This document shows, one piece after another, positions 13,986 to 20,785 of a stretch of DNA of 64,000 bases. The notes beneath the pieces were generated by a model that saw only the letters and a program-made list of their open reading frames with translations, made no database searches and was not told the origin of the DNA. Both the position numbers and the translations under genes were made by a program. This DNA is from Hydrogenophaga palleronii NBRC 102513. Its GTDB lineage: Bacteria > Pseudomonadota > Gammaproteobacteria > Burkholderiales > Burkholderiaceae_C. Within the stretch, counting starts at the first letter, position 1. Every line of letters starts with the position of its first letter. The stretch is from the NCBI RefSeq assembly GCF_001571225.1, contig NZ_BCTJ01000010.1:62001-126000 (forward strand), given 5' to 3'.

Positions 13986-14588
13986 ATGGATCGGTATTCG
14001 TCCCGCGACGATGTGATGCACGCCCAGACCGAACAGCTGCTGCGCGGGCTGATGCTCGCCGGCCTGGACGGCGACGCGGCGTCGTACCGCCGCTTCCTCC
14101 AGCTGCTCGGCTCGCGCCTTCGGTCGTTTTACCGCCGGCGCCTGTCCGGCTGGCCCGACGATGTGGAGGACCTCGTGCAAGAGACCCTGCTGGCGATCCA
14201 CAACCAGCGCCACACCTACCTGCCCGACCAGCCGATCACCGCCTGGGTGCACGCCATCGCACGCTACAAAACCATCGACCTGCTGCGCGCGCGCCAGGGC
14301 CGGGAAGCGCTGCACGACCCGCTGGACGACGAAGTCGCGCTGTTCGACACCGCAGACAACGAAGCCGCCGAGGCCCGGCGCGACCTGCACCAGCTGCTGG
14401 CCACCTTGCCCGAGCGCCAGCGCCTGCCGATCGAACAGGTCAAGCTGGCGGGCCGTTCGGTTGCCGAGGTGGCGCTTGAAACCGGCATGTCGGAATCGGC
14501 CGTGAAGATCGGCATCCACCGCGGGCTGAAGGCCTTGGCCGCCCGCATCTCGGCCCTGCCCAAACCCCGGGCGAAAGCGTCCCCATGA
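13986..14588 (+). CDS. ECF-type RNA polymerase sigma factor
   Basis: 200 residues with region 2 (FYRRRLSGWPDDVEDLVQETLLAIH, split across about residues 44-70) and region 4 (LPERQRLPIEQVKLAGRSV, then helix-turn-helix ETGMSESAVKIGIHRGL at about 165-182). The stop overlaps the next gene, an NrsF-type anti-sigma, by four bases. This pairing is that of Caulobacter SigF/NrsF-like systems which respond to heavy metals or oxidants. No reliable ECF promoter could be read before this gene or the MXKDX gene. Confidence 0.9.
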   Translation: MDRYSSRDDVMHAQTEQLLRGLMLAGLDGDAASYRRFLQLLGSRLRSFYRRRLSGWPDDVEDLVQETLLAIHNQRHTYLPDQPITAWVHAIARYKTIDLLRARQGREALHDPLDDEVALFDTADNEAAEARRDLHQLLATLPERQRLPIEQVKLAGRSVAEVALETGMSESAVKIGIHRGLKALAARISALPKPRAKASP

Positions 14589-15226
14589 AAACCGACGACC
14601 TCATTCACCTGCTGGCCACCGACACCGTGCCGGTGCAGCGCCACGTGGCGGCGCGGCGGCTGGCGCTCGGCCTGCTGCTCGCGCTGCCGGTCTCGCTGCT
14701 GCTCATGGCCACCGTGCTCGGCGTCAACCCTGCACTGCGTGGCTACCTCGGGCAACCCATGTTCTGGGTGAAGTTCGGCACGCCCTTGCTGATGGCGCTG
14801 CTGGCCCTGCCGCTGGTGGCCCGGCTCGGCCGCCCCGGCATGAGCACACGCGCGGCCTGGGTGCGTTGGCTGCTGCCGATCACCTTTCTGTGGGCGCTCG
14901 GGCTGGTGGCGGTTGCACAAGCCCCGGCCAGCGAACTGCCGGCCCTGATGCTGAGCCGCACCTGGCGGGTGTGCGCAGAGAACATCGCCGTGCTGTCGCT
15001 GCCGGTGTTCCTCGCCGCCATCTGGGTGTTGCGCTCCCTGGCCCCGGTGCGTCCTGCGCTGGCCGGTGCGGGCGCGGGGGCGCTGGGCGGCGCGTCGGGC
15101 GCCGCGGTGTATGCCATCCACTGCCCGGAACTCGCCGCGCCCTTCATCGCCATCTGGTACGTGCTGGGCATGGCGCTGCCGGTGGCGGCCGGTGCGTTGG
15201 TGGGGCCGCGGCTGCTGCGCTGGTAA
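14585..15226 (+). CDS. NrsF-family (DUF1109) membrane anti-sigma factor
   Basis: 213 residues with a short cytoplasmic N-terminus starting MKTDDLIHLLATD, typical for NrsF, followed by six predicted membrane helices and a C-terminus with HCPELAAPFIAIWY, matching the conserved HCPE-type segment of the family. The family holds its cognate ECF sigma at the membrane and releases it on stress; conserved Cys in relatives are implicated in sensing. Translationally coupled to the sigma gene. Confidence 0.9.
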   Translation: MKTDDLIHLLATDTVPVQRHVAARRLALGLLLALPVSLLLMATVLGVNPALRGYLGQPMFWVKFGTPLLMALLALPLVARLGRPGMSTRAAWVRWLLPITFLWALGLVAVAQAPASELPALMLSRTWRVCAENIAVLSLPVFLAAIWVLRSLAPVRPALAGAGAGALGGASGAAVYAIHCPELAAPFIAIWYVLGMALPVAAGALVGPRLLRW

Positions 15227-15235
15227 CGAGCGTCC

Positions 15236-16138
15236 TCAGGCGCGCCGCTGCGCGCCGGCGTGGCCATGCCCCGCGCGGGCCCGGTACTGCGCTATCCAGC
15301 CGACCGACTGTGCAATGCCGCCGAACGGGAAAAAATGCAGACTCACGGTGCCATGTGCTGCTGTCAGGCCGGCGGCCAGACGGTCCACGAAAAGATCCGG
15401 CCCTGCCGTGCCGAACAGCTTACCGATGGAGATGCCGTAGCTGGACCACATCGACGCGCATGCGCTGACGCCGCACAGGGCCGCATAACGCGCGAGCACC
15501 GCCACGCCCGCCGGGCCCGGCACACCCACGCGTACCGGGTGTTCGATGCCACGTTCGCGCAGCGCTTGCAACCAGGTGAGCACGATGTCGGCATCAAAGG
15601 CGAACTGCGTGACGATCCAGGGCGCCATGCCGCGCTGTTCGATGCTGCGGCACTTGCGTTCCAGCACCGCCCAGCGATCGGCCGCATTCATGACCGGATG
15701 GCCTTCGGGATGCCCGCCCACGCCCACCACCTGAATGCCCGCACGCTCGAAAACGCCTGTGTCGATCAACGAATGGCTGTCCGCAAACGGCCCCGCCGGG
15801 GTGGACGGATCGCCCGCGATCACGAAGCAACGCTTCACGCCGGCTTCGGCCACCGCACGCTCGACAAACGCCTGCAGCTCGGCGAGCGAGGCGATGCGGC
15901 GCGCAGACAGGTGCGGCATCGGCTCAAAGCCGAGTTCGTGCACGGCGCGCGCGGCAGCCAGCCGCGCCTCGTTGTCCTGGTTGGCCAGGTAGGGAATGGA
16001 AATGGTGGAGCCGGTGGCGATGCGCGCCGCCGCGGCGGCCAGCGCGGGCATGTCCTTCGCGTTGACCTCCAACGAACAGGCCTCGGTGATATCGCTGGCG
16101 GGCCCGGGTTTGTCGATATGAATCATCGGTCTTGCCAT
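15236..16138 (-). CDS. MetF-like methylenetetrahydrofolate reductase family protein
   Basis: 300 residues from ATG 16138 (a GTG at 16165 and an ATG at 16126 are alternatives). A TIM-barrel MTHFR-family pattern is visible: CSLEV near the N-terminus in the place of the usual S(F/V)E(F/V), CFVIAGDPS, VGGHPEGHP (compare AxYPExHP in MetF) and IVTQFAFDAD. It is a divergent, short member, so it may not be the housekeeping MetF. Family members reduce 5,10-methylene-THF to 5-methyl-THF using FAD. Its position beside QueH, metR and the mesX-mesD genes is suggestive, but MesD is reported not to need methyl-folate. Confidence 0.8.
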   Translation of the reverse strand: MARPMIHIDKPGPASDITEACSLEVNAKDMPALAAAAARIATGSTISIPYLANQDNEARLAAARAVHELGFEPMPHLSARRIASLAELQAFVERAVAEAGVKRCFVIAGDPSTPAGPFADSHSLIDTGVFERAGIQVVGVGGHPEGHPVMNAADRWAVLERKCRSIEQRGMAPWIVTQFAFDADIVLTWLQALRERGIEHPVRVGVPGPAGVAVLARYAALCGVSACASMWSSYGISIGKLFGTAGPDLFVDRLAAGLTAAHGTVSLHFFPFGGIAQSVGWIAQYRARAGHGHAGAQRRA

Positions 16139-16250
16139 CCTCGGCCATGGTGTGGAGGGCTTCACAACGTCAGCGCCGCTCGGGCTGGCGGCGAGCCAGG
16201 GAACACGTTCAGGAAGCTCGGAGGAAGCGTTGCTCCCCCCGCAAGGCGCA

Positions 16251-16919
16251 TCAGTCTTTGGTCGGCGCTTCGTCGCCGTAGAACATCACGCCCAGCTGGA
16301 TGCGTTCGCGGCCGCTGTCCACCCGGTGGCGGTTGGTATCGCGCAGCGAATAGACGCAGCCGCAGTACTCCTGCTGGTAGAAGTTCTCGCGCTTGCTGAT
16401 CTCGATCATGCGCGCGGAGCCGCCGCCCTTGCGCCAGTTGTATTCCCAGTACATCAGGCCGGGGTACCTGGCTGCCGCACGCACACCGCAGTCGTTGATC
16501 TGCTGCATGTTCTTCCAGCGCGAGATGCCCAGCGAACTGGTGATCACCGGAAAGCCGTGCTCATGCGCATACAGCGCCGTGCGCTCGAAACGCATGTCGA
16601 AGCACATGGTGCAGCGCACGCCGCGCTCGGGCTCGTTCTCCATGCCGCGGGCGCGCTCGAACCAGTTGTCGCGGTCGTAGTCTGCGTCGATGAAGGGCAC
16701 GCCGAACTGCTCCGCGAAACGGATGTTCTCGTTCTTGCGCAGCTCGTATTCCTTGAGCGGATGGATGTTGGGGTTGTAGAAGAAGATGGTGTAGTCGATG
16801 CCGGAGGCCAGCATGGCCTCCATGACCTCGCCCGAGCACGGCGCGCAGCAGGAATGCAGCAGCACCTTCTGATGGCCGCCGGGCAGCGGCAGCGGTTGGC
16901 GGTCGACGGTGGTGTTCAT
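16251..16919 (-). CDS. queH: Epoxyqueuosine reductase QueH
   Basis: 222 residues from ATG 16919. The QueH (DUF208) Cys sets are present: HSCCAPCS near residue 27, CTMCFD in the middle and YCGCVY near the C-terminus, which bind a [4Fe-4S] cluster and a second metal site. QueH reduces epoxyqueuosine to queuosine in tRNA wobble positions without cobalamin, replacing the B12-dependent QueG. The start codon overlaps the metR stop by four bases (ATGA), so it is cotranscribed with and translationally coupled to metR, an unusual partner. Its B12 independence echoes the B12-free methionine synthase across the promoter. Confidence 0.9.
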
Positions 16920-17830
16920 GTGTTGGCTCCTTTCGCAAAGGCGGTGGCCGCAGGCGTGCGGGCCAGTTCGATGAAGGCCCGCACGTAGTCGATGGCGGTG
17001 TCCGCCTCGCGTGCCCCCAGGAAGATCTGCTTGGCGATGCCGCGCGCGCCCAGCCGCACCGGCACCACGTCCATCCTGGCCGCGTACTCCTCCACCAGCC
17101 AGCGCGGCAGGGCAGCCACGCCGCGGCCGCTGGCCACCATCTGCAACATGATGTCGGTGGTTTCGATGGCCTTGTGCCGCCTGGGCGTGACACCGGCGGG
17201 CAACAGGAACTGGTTGTAGATGTCCAGGCGCTCGATGTCCACGGGGTAGCTGATGAGCACTTCCCTGGTCAGCTGCTGGGGCTTCACGTAGGCCGCAGAG
17301 GCCAGGGCATGGCCCTTGGCCACGACCAGCACCTGCTCGTAGTCGAACACGGGCTCGAACTTCAGGCCCGGCTTGTAGAGCGGGTCGGGCGTGACGAGCA
17401 GGTCGATCTCGTAGCCGAAGAGCGCGCCGATTCCGCCGAACTGGAATTTCTGCTTCACGTCCACATCCACGTCGGGCCAGGCCGCCAGATAGGGCGAGAC
17501 CACCTTGAGCAGCCACTGGTAACAAGGGTGGCATTCCATGCCGATGCGCAGTGCACCGCGCTCGCCCTGCGCGAACTGGCCCAGGCGTTCTTCGGCCAGG
17601 TCCAGTTGCGGCAGCACGCGGTTCGCCACCGCCAGCAGGTACTGGCCTGCCTGCGTCAGGCGCAGGCTGCGACCTTCGCGCAGCCAGACGTCGGTGCCCA
17701 GTTGCTGCTCCAGCTTTTTCATGCTGTGGCTCAGGGCCGACTGGGTGAGGTTCAGCACGCCCGCGGCGGCCGTCAACGACCCTTGTTTCTCGACCTGCTG
17801 AACGATGCTGAGGTGGATGCGCTCAAGCAT
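16916..17830 (-). CDS. metR: LysR-family regulator MetR
   Basis: 304 residues with an N-terminal winged helix (about 1-60; [19 protein letters not shown]) and a periplasmic-binding-like effector domain. The segments [42 protein letters not shown] and [11 protein letters not shown] closely parallel E. coli MetR (AIECHSCIQWL; YPVQRSRLDVW..FLQPAGV; MVAARMGIAALP). MetR activates methionine synthase genes with homocysteine as coeffector. It is divergent from the flavin reductase-mesX-mesD genes with a dyad in between, and its stop is coupled to queH. Confidence 0.88.
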
Positions 17831-17856
17831 TCAAATGAACTCGGCTCATGGATTGG

Positions 17857-17879
17857 TGAAATAAAACCATTTTACTTCA
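17857..17879. promoter_or_regulatory. Putative MetR operator between metR and the mes genes
   Basis: A 23-bp dyad, outer arms TGAA/TTCA and inner arms TAAAA/TTTTA around a CCA centre. The outer arms fit the MetR half-site pair TGAA...TTCA. A second short palindrome TTCAAATGAA at 17830-17839 overlaps the metR start codon. This location is right for a LysR-type regulator that controls itself and a divergent target. Confidence 0.5.
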
Positions 17880-18006
17880 TGAGCACACATCCATACCATC
17901 CGCGTCCATGGATCGTTTGCGTTCTCGGGAGCGGTCCCAAGATCTGCGCGAGCCATGACGGCGGCGCTCTTCGGCACGGCGCAGATCCATCCATACGAAA
18001 GCAAGC

Positions 18007-18588
18007 ATGACACGTCCACTCCGTTTGGTCGCCGTTTCCGGCGGACTGCAACGCCCTTCCAAATCTGCGGCCCTGGCAGAGCACCTGATGGACCTGGTCG
18101 CCGACGCACTGCCGTGCGAGCAGCGCCTGGTCGAACTGGGTCAGCTCGCGCCGCGGCTTGCCGGTGCCACCTGGCGCAGCCACCTGCCCGACTCGGTGGA
18201 GCGGGAGCTGGCGGCGGTCGAGCAGGCTGACGTTCTGGTGGTGGCCACACCGGTCTTCCGTGGTTCCTACACCGGACTGTTCAAACACTTCTTCGACTTC
18301 ATCGACCAGGACGCCCTGATCGACAAACCGGTGTTGTTGGCTGCCACCGGTGGCAGCGAGCGCCATGCCCTGGTGATCGACCACCAGTTGCGGCCGCTGT
18401 TCAGCTTCTTCCAGGCGCGCACATTGCCGCTGGGTGTCTATGCGACCGACAAGGATTTCGCCGACTACCGCCTGCAGAACGCCGCCCTGATCGAGCGGGC
18501 CAGGCAGGCCGTCCAACGGGCATTGCCGTTGGTGGATCTGGCGCGCCACACAAGGCCCGCCCGGGCCGAGGAAGTGCTTGCGGCCTGA
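18007..18588 (+). CDS. NAD(P)H-dependent FMN reductase (SsuE/MsuE-like)
   Basis: 193 residues in a flavodoxin-like fold: N-terminal LVAVSGGLQRPSKS phosphate-binding loop, ATPVFRGSYTGLFKHFFDF (the family's PVY.gsytG.lK.F.D signature) and a TGGSERHA loop. The family supplies reduced FMN to two-component monooxygenases, as SsuE and MsuE do in sulfonate use. Here it is the first gene of the unit leading to mesX and mesD, 45 bases before mesX. Since MesD activity is reported to need MesX and oxygen, supply of FMNH2 to MesX is an attractive inference. Confidence 0.88.
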   Translation: MTRPLRLVAVSGGLQRPSKSAALAEHLMDLVADALPCEQRLVELGQLAPRLAGATWRSHLPDSVERELAAVEQADVLVVATPVFRGSYTGLFKHFFDFIDQDALIDKPVLLAATGGSERHALVIDHQLRPLFSFFQARTLPLGVYATDKDFADYRLQNAALIERARQAVQRALPLVDLARHTRPARAEEVLAA

Positions 18589-18633
18589 CACACGGATCGG
18601 TCTTCTCTTAAAAAATCAGCTCACTGAATCGCC

Positions 18634-19617
18634 ATGAACACAGAACTCAGCTTCCACCTCAAGAGCATTTGCTTCGATGAGAACTACCACCCATCGAACA
18701 GCACGCGCATCACCACCAACTTTGCCAACCTGGCCCGGGGCACGAGCCGGCAGCAGAACCTGCGCAACACGCTGAGGATGATTGACAACCGCTTCAACGA
18801 CCTGGCGCACTGGGACAACCCGACGGGCGACCGTTACTCGGTCGAACTCGAGATCGTCTCTGTCGAGATGAACATGGATGCCAAGGGCAGCGGCGATGTG
18901 TTCCCGCTGATCGAGATACTGAAGACCAGCATCCTCGACCGGAAAGAGAACAAGCGCATCGACGGCATCGCAGGGAACAACTTCTCCTCCTACGTGCGCG
19001 ACTACGACTTCAGCGTCCTGCTGCCGGCATACAACGCCCATCGGGCGGAATTCAGCACGCCGGACGACTTTGGCGACCTGCACGGCAAGCTGTTCCAGCA
19101 GTTTGCCAACTCGAGCACCTACAAGCAGCACTTCAACAAGCCGCCGGTCATCTGCATCAGCGCCTCGACCAGCAAGACCTATCAGCGGACCGGCAACCAG
19201 CACCCGGTGCTGGGTGTCGAGTACCAACAGAATGAACTGTCCTCGACCGACCGGTACTTCGAAAAAATGGGGATGCAGGTTCGTTTCTTCATGCCGCCGA
19301 ATGGCGTTGCACCACTGGCCTTCTACTTTCACGGCGACCTGCTGGCCGACTACACGAATCTCGAACTGATCGGCACCATCAGCACGATGGAGACCTTCCA
19401 GAAGATTTACCGCCCCGAGATCTACAACGCCAACTCTGCAGCCGGGAAGCTCTACCAACCGAGCCTGAAGAACCAGGACTATTCGTTGACGCAGATCGTC
19501 TACGACCGGGAAGAGCGCAGCCAGCTGGCGGTTCAGCAGGGGAAGTTCGCCGAGGAGCGCTTCATCAAGCCGTACAAGAACGTCCTCGAACAATGGGTGG
19601 CCAACTGCGCGGCCTGA
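18634..19617 (+). CDS. mesX: DUF1852 protein, MesX: partner of core methionine synthase
   Basis: 327 residues, cytoplasmic, no signal peptide or membrane segment. Recognised as DUF1852 from its start (MNTELSFHLKSICFDENYHP), the central ICISASTSKTYQRTGNQHP block and its position immediately ahead of a core methionine synthase. In published genetic work on aerobic bacteria, MesD requires this protein family and oxygen, and neither 5-methyl-THF nor cobalamin, to make methionine from homocysteine; the methyl donor is not established. It has no recognisable cofactor motif. The neighbouring FMN reductase suggests a flavin-dependent oxygenase role, which is an inference. It is followed by two hairpins before mesD. 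Confidence 0.85.
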   Translation: MNTELSFHLKSICFDENYHPSNSTRITTNFANLARGTSRQQNLRNTLRMIDNRFNDLAHWDNPTGDRYSVELEIVSVEMNMDAKGSGDVFPLIEILKTSILDRKENKRIDGIAGNNFSSYVRDYDFSVLLPAYNAHRAEFSTPDDFGDLHGKLFQQFANSSTYKQHFNKPPVICISASTSKTYQRTGNQHPVLGVEYQQNELSSTDRYFEKMGMQVRFFMPPNGVAPLAFYFHGDLLADYTNLELIGTISTMETFQKIYRPEIYNANSAAGKLYQPSLKNQDYSLTQIVYDREERSQLAVQQGKFAEERFIKPYKNVLEQWVANCAA

Positions 19618-19628
19618 CCTGCCTGCAC

Positions 19629-19677
19629 ACAGACCGTTCCTCCTGAAGAAACGGTCTGTCGTCATGCCCCGCATGAC
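19629..19677 (+). other. Two adjacent perfect hairpins between mesX and mesD
   Basis: A 10-bp perfect stem (ACAGACCGTT 19629-19638 with AACGGTCTGT 19650-19659) is followed one base later by a 7-bp perfect stem (GTCATGC 19661-19667 with GCATGAC 19671-19677). Neither is followed by a U-tract, so they are not simple terminators. In a 142-base gap inside an apparent operon they may set RNA stability, mark a processing site, or be part of a regulatory RNA. Confidence 0.55.
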
Positions 19678-19759
19678 GCGCCACCCCGCGGCGGCTCGGG
19701 CAGAACGCGCCCGACACGCGCGCTCGCCACATCCATTTTTTCTTGAAAGGCATTCTCAG

Positions 19760-20785
19760 ATGTTCGAAACCTCCATCGCCGGCAGCCTGCCGAAGCCCGC
19801 CTGGCTGGCCGAAACCAACAAGCTCTGGCCGCAGTGGCAGGCGGAAGGCGATGCGCTGCGGCAAGCCAAGGCCGACGCGACCCTGCTGTGGATCAAGGCC
19901 CAGGAAGACGCGGGCCTGGACATCGTGTGCGACGGCGAGCAATCGCGCCAGCACTTCGTGCACGGTTTCCTGGAGCAGGTCGAGGGCATCGACTTCGAGC
20001 ACAAGGTGAAGATGGGCATCCGCGACAACCGCTACGACGCGATGGTGCCGCAGGTGGTGTCGGCCCTGCGCCTGAAGGGCCGCGTGCATGCCTTCGAAGC
20101 CCAGCTGGCGCGCGCGCACACAAAGAAGAAGCTGAAGTTCACCCTGCCCGGCCCGATGACCATCGTCGACACCGTGGCGGACCGCTTCTACGGCAACAAG
20201 ATCAAGATGGCCTTCGCCTTCGCCGAGCTGCTCAACCAGGAAGCCCTGGCGTTGCAGGCCGACGGCGTGGACATCATCCAGTTCGACGAGCCCGCGTTCA
20301 ACGTGTACATGAAGGACGCCGCCGACTGGGGCGTGCAGGCGCTCGAGCGCGCCGCGCAGGGCCTGACCTGCACGACGGCGGTGCACATCTGCTACGGCTA
20401 CGGCATCAAGGCGAACACCGACTGGAAGAGCACCCTGGGTGAAGAATGGCGCCAGTACGAGGCGGTGTTCCCCGCGCTGGCCAAGAGCCGCATCGACCAG
20501 GTGAGCCTGGAATGCATCCACTCCCACGTGCCGCCCGACCTGATGAAGCTGCTGGCCGGCAAGGACGTGATGGTTGGCGTGATCGATGTGGCCAGCGACG
20601 TGGTCGAGACACCCGAGGAAGTGGCGGACACCATCGGCCGGGCACTGCAGTTCGTGCCGAAGGAGCGGCTGTTCCCGTGCACGAATTGCGGCCTGGCACC
20701 GATGGGGCGGGACGTGGCCTGGCGCAAGCTGAAGGCGCTGGCAGAAGGCACGAAGCTGGCCAAGGAGCGCCTCGCCTCGGCGTGA
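19760..20785 (+). CDS. mesD: Core methionine synthase MesD (MetE C-terminal-like)
   Basis: 341 residues from ATG 19760. It corresponds only to the zinc-containing catalytic half of MetE; the N-terminal folate-binding half (about 350 residues in MetE) is absent. Likely Zn ligands are H209 and C211 (HICYGYG), a Glu such as E251, and C310 in PCTNCGLAPM. DEPAF at about 176-180 matches the D(E)P motif of the family. It methylates homocysteine; adjacency to DUF1852/mesX assigns it to the MesD family, found in aerobes and independent of methyl-folate and B12. Start is placed at MFETSIAGSLPKP; an in-frame ATG at 19664 gives an implausible Arg-rich extension across the hairpins. Confidence 0.87.
   Translation: MFETSIAGSLPKPAWLAETNKLWPQWQAEGDALRQAKADATLLWIKAQEDAGLDIVCDGEQSRQHFVHGFLEQVEGIDFEHKVKMGIRDNRYDAMVPQVVSALRLKGRVHAFEAQLARAHTKKKLKFTLPGPMTIVDTVADRFYGNKIKMAFAFAELLNQEALALQADGVDIIQFDEPAFNVYMKDAADWGVQALERAAQGLTCTTAVHICYGYGIKANTDWKSTLGEEWRQYEAVFPALAKSRIDQVSLECIHSHVPPDLMKLLAGKDVMVGVIDVASDVVETPEEVADTIGRALQFVPKERLFPCTNCGLAPMGRDVAWRKLKALAEGTKLAKERLASA

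Follow-up and report, generated by a model that had tools for sequence, protein, structure and literature searches.

A probable B12-free backup for methionine synthesis around mesX-mesD in Hydrogenophaga palleronii, with recurrent B12-free neighbours at related loci

Hydrogenophaga palleronii NBRC 102513 carries the genes mesX and mesD in a 64,000-nucleotide stretch of its genome (assembly GCF_001571225.1, contig NZ_BCTJ01000010.1, positions 62,001 to 126,000 of the forward strand; referred to here as the window, with positions counted from its first letter). This locus probably serves as a backup route to methionine that works without B12, with two arms that diverge from a MetR-type control region. 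In the proposed right arm, an MsuE-type reductase would reduce flavin mononucleotide (FMN), MesX would use the reduced flavin and O2 to derive an activated methyl group from a small molecule of central metabolism, and MesD would transfer this group to zinc-bound homocysteine. The left arm would provide MetR, QueH (for the B12-free last step of tRNA queuosine synthesis) and a protein resembling methylenetetrahydrofolate reductase (MTHFR), and both arms would be useful when B12 is scarce or inactivated. The window mesX-mesD pair most likely backs up MetH without B12 and shares its control region with a B12-free backup for the B12-dependent enzyme QueG. At some related loci, mesXD lies beside genes for class Ib NrdEF (ribonucleotide reduction) or the 2-methylcitrate cycle (propionate use), suggesting what may be a B12-independence island.

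MesD and MesX were named by Price, Deutschbauer and Arkin in 2021, who report that E. coli furnished with mesX and mesD requires both genes and O2, but not MetF, for methionine synthesis, that a putative flavin reductase is often encoded near mesXD, and that MesX might provide the methyl group through a redox reaction with a flavin cofactor (PMC7857596). The original prediction for this locus, made from sequence, gave an account of MesD and MesX that is accurate against what that paper reports; its proposal that MesX is a flavin-dependent oxygenase generating the methyl group is not new, because the same paper already makes it and notes the reductase neighbour. No later MesX biochemistry was found in the open-licence literature. 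By analogy with the MesX proteins described in print, the window MesX would need MesD and O2 for methionine synthesis.

The predicted gene order, with a reductase followed by mesX and mesD and a divergent metR, was borne out. The mesX gene (DUF1852; 18634-19617, + strand), present as a single copy in the host genome, encodes a putative oxygenase that would supply the methyl group, and matches PF08908 (‘Putative oxygenase MesX’) with 621.7 bits across positions 1-323 of 323. It is followed by mesD (19760-20785, + strand; NF006589, 585.5 bits, over cut-off; PF01717, 109.6 bits), encoding a predicted core methionine synthase of a second subfamily described below. The mesD reading frame is open from 19664, but homology begins only at the ATG at 19760, where the start was therefore placed. 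The reductase gene and mesX are separated by 45 nt, and mesX and mesD by 142 nt; the latter gap holds an inverted repeat at 19633-19660 (arms of ~9 bp, judged by eye), near the false upstream mesD start, which may serve as an attenuator or else be a repeat element. The pairing of mesX and mesD is not due to chance, since MesD adjoins MesX in 29/29 MesX loci of other genomes (L088-L116).

The first gene of the right arm (18007-18588, + strand) encodes an NAD(P)H:FMN reductase, as predicted. It passes the MsuE model TIGR03566 (259.6 bits, cut-off 212.5; PF03358, 100.5 bits) and falls below the cut-off of the SsuE model TIGR03567 (102.6 against 164.05 bits), so that ‘MsuE-type’ describes it more exactly than the predicted SsuE-like label; its nearest solved relative is 4c76. 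The co-occurrence of such reductases with mesX was examined at 97 mesX loci, comprising 80 genome loci (those nearest to the window, the best 80 of at least 591 confirmed stretches), 11 plasmid regions and 9 longer genome stretches, minus three duplicates (L044, L143 and L149; trees were also built without L046), and in 40 control stretches of 13 kb each from 19 MesX-bearing genomes. An MsuE-type reductase is encoded at 22/97 loci and a non-homologous PF01613-type reductase at 26/97, while the two types never occur together (0/97) and both are absent from the control stretches (0/40). All mesX-linked reductases are on the mesXD strand, the MsuE-type gene lying before mesX (except in L145, where it is between mesX and mesD) and the PF01613-type gene after mesD; 25 of the latter are adjacent, the exception being L159, where the gene is 3 kb away beside an annotated luciferase-like monooxygenase (LLM)-class oxidoreductase. 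On the MesX tree, the reductase state requires at least 18 changes. The MsuE-type gene might be a stray from sulfonate metabolism, unrelated to MesX, and it does pass the MsuE equivalog cut-off; this is very improbable, given the linkage at 22 loci, always on the mesX strand and once between mesX and mesD, and given that L158, the sole annotated relative with this reductase, lists no sulfonate monooxygenase in its stretch (its gene table is incomplete). The context of the window reductase points to mesXD rather than to a methanesulfonate monooxygenase.

In Acinetobacter baumannii, B12 is reported to lower the expression of both mesX (log2 -8.3) and the flavin reductase ABUW_3196 (log2 -2.5) (PMC12892962). 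The recruitment of two unrelated reductases, never together, and this co-repression support reduced flavin as a co-substrate of MesX, and from its neighbours MesX would use reduced FMN (FMNH2) and O2; the chance that reduced flavin is the co-substrate is judged to be about even. Several observations count against it. At 49/97 loci, neither reductase type is present, which weakens a strict need for a dedicated reductase, and mesX and mesD alone are reported to be enough in E. coli (PMC7857596). The 49 loci would have to use reductases encoded elsewhere. E. coli possesses flavin reductases of its own, so the E. coli result does not exclude a flavin. The predicted structure of MesX also resembles no known flavin-binding fold, as set out below. 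MesX might accordingly be an oxygenase or oxidase with a different cofactor (a metal, or peroxide as the oxidant), with the reductases playing a secondary part, for instance in general FMNH2 supply or in coping with stress. This alternative is possible though doubtful: it gains from the lack of a fold match that would indicate a flavin enzyme family, from the many near-invariant possible ligands in MesX (e.g. H150, C174, H190 and E196), and from the reductase-free loci and the E. coli result, and it leaves unexplained why two unrelated flavin reductases should have entered the same operon on the same strand, never both, one of them co-repressed with mesX by B12. The original interpretation is partly supported, its link to reduced flavin gaining from the two reductases, their repeated changes of state and the A. 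baumannii data.

A relation of MesX to a solved or otherwise curated family was rejected. All 78 MesX proteins searched against Pfam contain PF08908, with eight other families appearing in 1-3 members each at a best E-value of 0.0071. A MesX profile searched against PDB sequences returned a single match at E 0.42, and a single MesX sequence returned none up to E 1. An AlphaFold2 model built from 78 aligned sequences (predicted local distance difference test score 84.3, predicted template modelling score 0.86) gave no Foldseek match at E <= 0.001 against PDB or BFVD; the best E-values were 0.16 (PDB) and 0.065 (BFVD), with most listed root-mean-square deviations at 15 Å or above. As a control, MesD modelled by the same steps from 31 sequences gave 57 matches at E <= 0.001, including 3rpd at E 3.7e-37. 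Comparison of the predicted structure with flavin oxygenases, suggested in the original prediction, therefore indicates no known flavin-oxygenase family for MesX, because the model resembles no PDB fold. MesX may have either a new fold or one out of Foldseek's reach, the lack of a match not being proof of a different fold. In MesX, 90 positions are at least 99% conserved in 97 sequences, including D123, D125, H150, C174, H190 and E196, and the lowest pairwise identity in this set, Rhodococcus included, is 55%.

A candidate MesX-reductase fusion, a 475-residue MesX frame in L109, was rejected as direct proof; its extra N-terminal part looks by eye like an untranslated upstream frame. Extra MesX pieces are present besides the full copy in G082 (C1:2175963-2176446) and L153 (896-1033), one with an in-frame stop, as if they were decayed second copies. 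L028, from a record titled Bacillus subtilis, contains a mesX 77% identical to that of the window in a rhizobial arrangement, and is probably a contaminated or mislabelled assembly.

As to the chemistry, a one-carbon unit could alkylate reduced flavin at N5, and O2 would then oxidise the product to a methyl-flavinium usable by MesD. This scheme is speculation and is given very little probability; if true, it would explain the need for reduced flavin and O2 but not for MetF.

The MesD protein of the window (341 residues) matches PF01717 across positions 2-320 of 324, and thus corresponds to the catalytic half of MetE only. Aligned to 3rpd (414.5 bits by sequence), it keeps the zinc ligands H209, C211, E251 and C310 and the homocysteine-binding residues S9, E60 and D176, the zinc and substrate residues of MetE and MesD being those named by Price et al. 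(PMC7857596). It falls in a clade of 18 sequences (SH-aLRT, the Shimodaira-Hasegawa-like approximate likelihood ratio test, 100) with at least 89% identity inside the clade, compared to a median of 56% and a maximum of 60% to the 79 other, canonical MesD sequences. Across the same divide, MesX has a median identity of 71% and a maximum of 85%, and shows no such split. On the MesX tree, 4 changes of MesD type are needed, of which at least 2 are forced by starred branches. A tight fit between MesX and MesD is weakened by these observations, and from the discrete MesD split and the switches on the MesX tree it follows that the methyltransferase was probably exchanged beside MesX. Folate independence is reported for the MesD proteins of Acinetobacter baylyi and Sphingomonas koreensis, which belong to the other subfamily (PMC7857596), and that of the window presumably works in the same way. 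In the published MesD surveys, cut-offs of ~55% identity to ACIAD3523 in one and ~72% in the other are given (PMC7857596); the window clade, at 56% (maximum 60%) as measured against canonical MesD rather than ACIAD3523 itself, is near the former and below the latter, and a ~72% cut-off would probably leave this subfamily out.

The left arm begins with a LysR-family regulator gene divergent from the reductase gene (16916-17830, - strand; PF03466, PF00126), whose best model is MetR (NF011950), although its 225.1 bits are below the cut-off of 382. The start of queH (16251-16919, - strand; PF02677, 221.7 bits, cut-off 23.5) lies inside the metR stop codon, in an ATGA overlap at 16916-16919, and past queH follows an MTHFR-family gene (15236-16120, - strand; PF02219, 45 bits, cut-off 24; alternative reading frame start at 16165), which is below the cut-offs of TIGR00676 and TIGR00677. 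Because queH overlaps metR and the MTHFR-like gene follows on the same strand, the three genes may be transcribed together as a unit that faces msuE-mesX-mesD. QueH is an epoxyqueuosine reductase that does not need B12, unlike its B12-dependent counterpart QueG (PMC11906303, PMC5372724). Between the arms, a 23-bp imperfect palindrome at 17857-17879 is a candidate MetR operator; in 24/30 metR-linked sequences (one pair of which are duplicates), the same pattern lies at a distance of 25-28 nt from the metR start as aligned, and it is also present where no msuE was found (e.g. L007, L014 and L029). In the control stretches, one MetR homolog was found at E 1e-8 (54%, in L205), along with weaker LysR matches.

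The MetR-like protein of the window is 92-97% identical to those in several other genera, including Xanthomonas, compared to ~69-83% for MesX of the same loci, suggesting either unusually slow change or a separate transfer. MTHFR-family genes of the window type are found at 9 loci, next to metR or msuE (split in L160). Two Acinetobacter plasmids carry a different MTHFR-family type, which contains a PF12225 domain (checked in L153); L114 and L115 have a relative of this type divergent from mesX. Close orthologs of the window protein (at least 67%) were found in 5 genomes, all of them MesX-bearing, and at 48-55% in four more, none MesX-bearing. These neighbours possibly have a link to the methyl source, though they are not needed in E. 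coli. Just past the MTHFR-like gene, positions 13986-15226 (+ strand) hold a gene for an extracytoplasmic function (ECF) sigma factor and, after it, one for an anti-sigma factor of the NrsF type.

The host genome (4.84 Mb, 110 contigs, labelled 100% complete) contains metH, as two coding pieces, and metF, along with B12-dependent QueG. An ordinary MetE was rejected, as no MetE folate-binding domain (PF08267) was found in the genome; a second protein of the Meth_synt_2 family is of the PRK06520 type. No CbiC, whose presence marks de novo synthesis of B12, was found in the host genome. Two cobalamin riboswitches are present elsewhere in the genome, and the gene behind one of them, read in part, has a TonB B12 receptor as its best model (322 bits, under cut-off). 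Both arms of the window locus would make sense under B12 shortage, because the host MetH and QueG need B12, CbiC is absent, and a riboswitch-led receptor-like gene is present. The possibility that mesXD is idle or marginal in this host, with methionine coming from MetH, is favoured by the presence of MetH, MetF and the receptor-like gene, and the original prediction had named sufficiency of housekeeping MetE or MetH as grounds for refutation. This is partly live as regards MetH, but not MetE. An idle mesXD is nevertheless distinctly unlikely: all three right-arm genes are intact with conserved residues, and, because CbiC and the MetE folate domain are absent, the sole other candidate for methionine synthesis in the absence of outside B12 is the putative PRK06520-type paralog. 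In G019, a genome of the same genus, no match was found for mesX, queH or the MTHFR-like protein.

The association of QueH with MesX extends beyond the window. In a single sample of 398 genomes from the phylum (44 with and 354 without MesX), QueH is over cut-off in 16/44 MesX-bearing and 16/354 MesX-lacking genomes (p 5.6e-9, by Fisher tests that treat rows as independent although many loci and genomes are near kin). A shuffle within families, a repeat made for the QueH test only, gives a modest excess, with 16 genomes observed and 11.7 expected (p 0.0074). QueG is retained alongside QueH in 14/16 MesX-bearing compared to 3/16 MesX-lacking genomes (p 2.4e-4), which fits a backup used under certain conditions better than a replacement. 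CbiC is present in 6/44 MesX-bearing compared to 143/354 MesX-lacking genomes (p 4e-4).

Three families of B12-free partners recur at mesX loci. QueH is encoded at 5/97 loci besides the window, near full length in L003, L025 and L153, shortened in L145, and as a 58-residue piece in L160. The gene is located behind metR in the window and L003, behind mesX-mesD-reductase in Pseudomonas L025, behind mesX-msuE-mesD in L145, and on the opposite strand on the Acinetobacter plasmid L153. Genes of the 2-methylcitrate cycle are present at 7/97 loci (L006, L013, L014, L036, L042, L144 and L158); of eight Prp proteins compared to NCBIfam models, five are over cut-off (PrpB and PrpC of L036 and L144, and PrpF of L158), while PrpB of L158 and L042 and PrpD of L036 have the expected models as their best, below cut-off. 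Class Ib NrdE is encoded at 3/97 loci (L023, L024 and L056), with NrdE of L056 and NrdF of L023 over the cut-off for class Ib models; a class I ribonucleotide reductase pair in control stretch L190, at 23-24%, fails the 60% rule used for NrdE. In total, 15/97 loci and the window contain at least one of these partners, compared to 0/40 control stretches (p 0.006), the families having been picked after some loci had been viewed, so that this is not an unbiased test.

Cobalamin riboswitches provide a second connection to B12. A covariance model was trained on 18 cobalamin riboswitches found with Rfam. Applied to 99 mesX loci and to the window, it gave 23 matches in 18/99 loci, 17/99 having one in the intergenic region upstream of mesX, compared to 0/45 control stretches; most of the 18 positive loci are in the training set, and for those the scan is a recount. 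The riboswitches of L005, L018 and L151 are new from the covariance model and were confirmed with Rfam, and those of L024 were found with Rfam outside the training set. In 6 loci (L036, L144, L151, L154, L156 and L159), the riboswitch is on the mesX strand ~100-165 nt upstream, and 11 others have one in this intergenic region that points away from mesX. Of these 11, eight have it directed toward a 4HBT thioesterase gene and metR (L016, L018, L019, L032, L033, L038, L039 and L056; the thioesterase match in L032 is short), L023 and L024 toward metR alone, and L157 toward neither. All 3 NrdE loci contain a further riboswitch of their own ahead of the nrdE side. Among genome loci labelled Alphaproteobacteria, 11/12 have a riboswitch in the mesX upstream region, L034 having none; as background, three such genomes (15.6 Mb together) contain 17 riboswitches, including the three at mesX. 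A 4HBT thioesterase gene near mesX has a riboswitch in front of it in L016, L018, L019, L033, L038, L039, L056, L154 and L005, and the enzyme perhaps clears acyl-CoA accumulating when a B12-dependent mutase stalls.

MesX matches 209/72,556 plasmid records, of which 34 are typed as conjugative and 40 as mobilizable. At the DNA level, 61 plasmid records match part of the block that runs from the MTHFR-like gene to mesD, with coverage below 80% in each. Marine gammaproteobacteria, Cellvibrio and an Acinetobacter plasmid also have a recurrent TauE/SafE-type exporter gene close to mesXD (L037, L063, L064, L065, L066, L068, L071, L073, L075, L080 and L153).

A bolder reading, held tentatively, is that a B12-independence island, recurrent and in part carried on plasmids, is centred on mesX-mesD, and that MesX is the first of a new reduced-flavin oxygenase fold that makes a methyl group. 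Such an island would substitute for the four commonest B12 enzymes, with MesXD in place of MetH, QueH in place of QueG, class Ib NrdEF in place of NrdJ, and the 2-methylcitrate cycle in place of methylmalonyl-CoA mutase, and would be switched by cobalamin riboswitches in alphaproteobacteria and by MetR in the window. The neighbours might instead reflect shared regulation by B12 or methionine, or plasmid transfer, without the island being a working unit. The wide variation in arrangements, the absence of partners from most loci, the plasmid records and the modest within-family excess of QueH all speak for this explanation, which is nonetheless considered rather unlikely, since the partners replace three other B12 enzymes, as expected of a unit (the families having been chosen after viewing loci), metR and queH overlap, and 3/3 NrdE loci have their own riboswitch.

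The reading of the window locus as a B12-free backup, and of its relatives as an island, has further evidence to contend with. No B12-free partner is found inside the stretch covered at 82/97 loci, and QueH lies within 3 kb of mesX in only 2/16 genomes having both (G000 and G082). The QueG contrast is weaker when counted per family, QueG being present in 4/6 families with both MesX and QueH. A cobalamin riboswitch in the window was rejected, as none was found there. The window copy may still be under B12 or methionine control, with MetR as the candidate switch. As to sampling, the mesX loci are mutually related, the 80 genome loci having been picked by closeness to the window, and the control regions were taken at hand-picked round-number positions rather than drawn at random.

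Compared to the Acinetobacter baylyi and Sphingomonas koreensis systems, the window locus is alike in the adjacency of mesX and mesD, the nearby flavin reductase, the MesD residues and an aerobic host, but has a MesD of the second subfamily (56% identity) and a coupled metR and queH on the other strand. The window reductase is of the MsuE type and comes first, whereas that of the Acinetobacter relatives is of the PF01613 type and lies behind mesD. MesD is related to the catalytic half of MetE (PF01717) but lacks the folate-binding half. Two-component flavin monooxygenases work with an FMN reductase, as do the partners of MsuE and SsuE. The window locus resembles these systems in encoding an MsuE-type reductase beside a putative O2-requiring oxygenase, but no solved protein could be related to MesX by sequence or by fold. 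Repression of B12-free isozymes by B12 through riboswitches is a known principle (PMC545781), and the mesXD system resembles it in having a B12-free enzyme beside a B12-dependent one, and riboswitches at many alphaproteobacterial mesX loci and at 3/3 NrdE loci; it differs in that the B12-free enzymes clustered near mesXD come from unrelated pathways, and in that the window copy is paired with MetR and lacks a riboswitch. The mesXD system, its flavin-reductase neighbour and the MesX flavin idea are thus already in print in the 2021 paper (PMC7857596). A link between DUF1852 and a cobalamin riboswitch, and the wider pattern of B12-free substitutes and riboswitches around mesXD, were not found in print, as judged from the open-licence literature, with regulon databases and subscription papers outside this scope.

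The methyl donor of MesD and MesX is an unsolved step of methionine synthesis, for which two unrelated reductases favour the involvement of reduced flavin, and the fold of MesX may be one not described before. That mesXD is linked to cobalamin riboswitches and to QueH, class Ib ribonucleotide reductase and the 2-methylcitrate cycle tells of the purpose of the system, and its neighbourhoods offer a way to find more B12-free enzymes. Nitrous oxide inactivates MetH, and two strains with MesD homologs are reported to grow under it (PMC13059711). The mesXD system is relevant both to nitrous oxide tolerance and to the dependence of microbial communities on B12.

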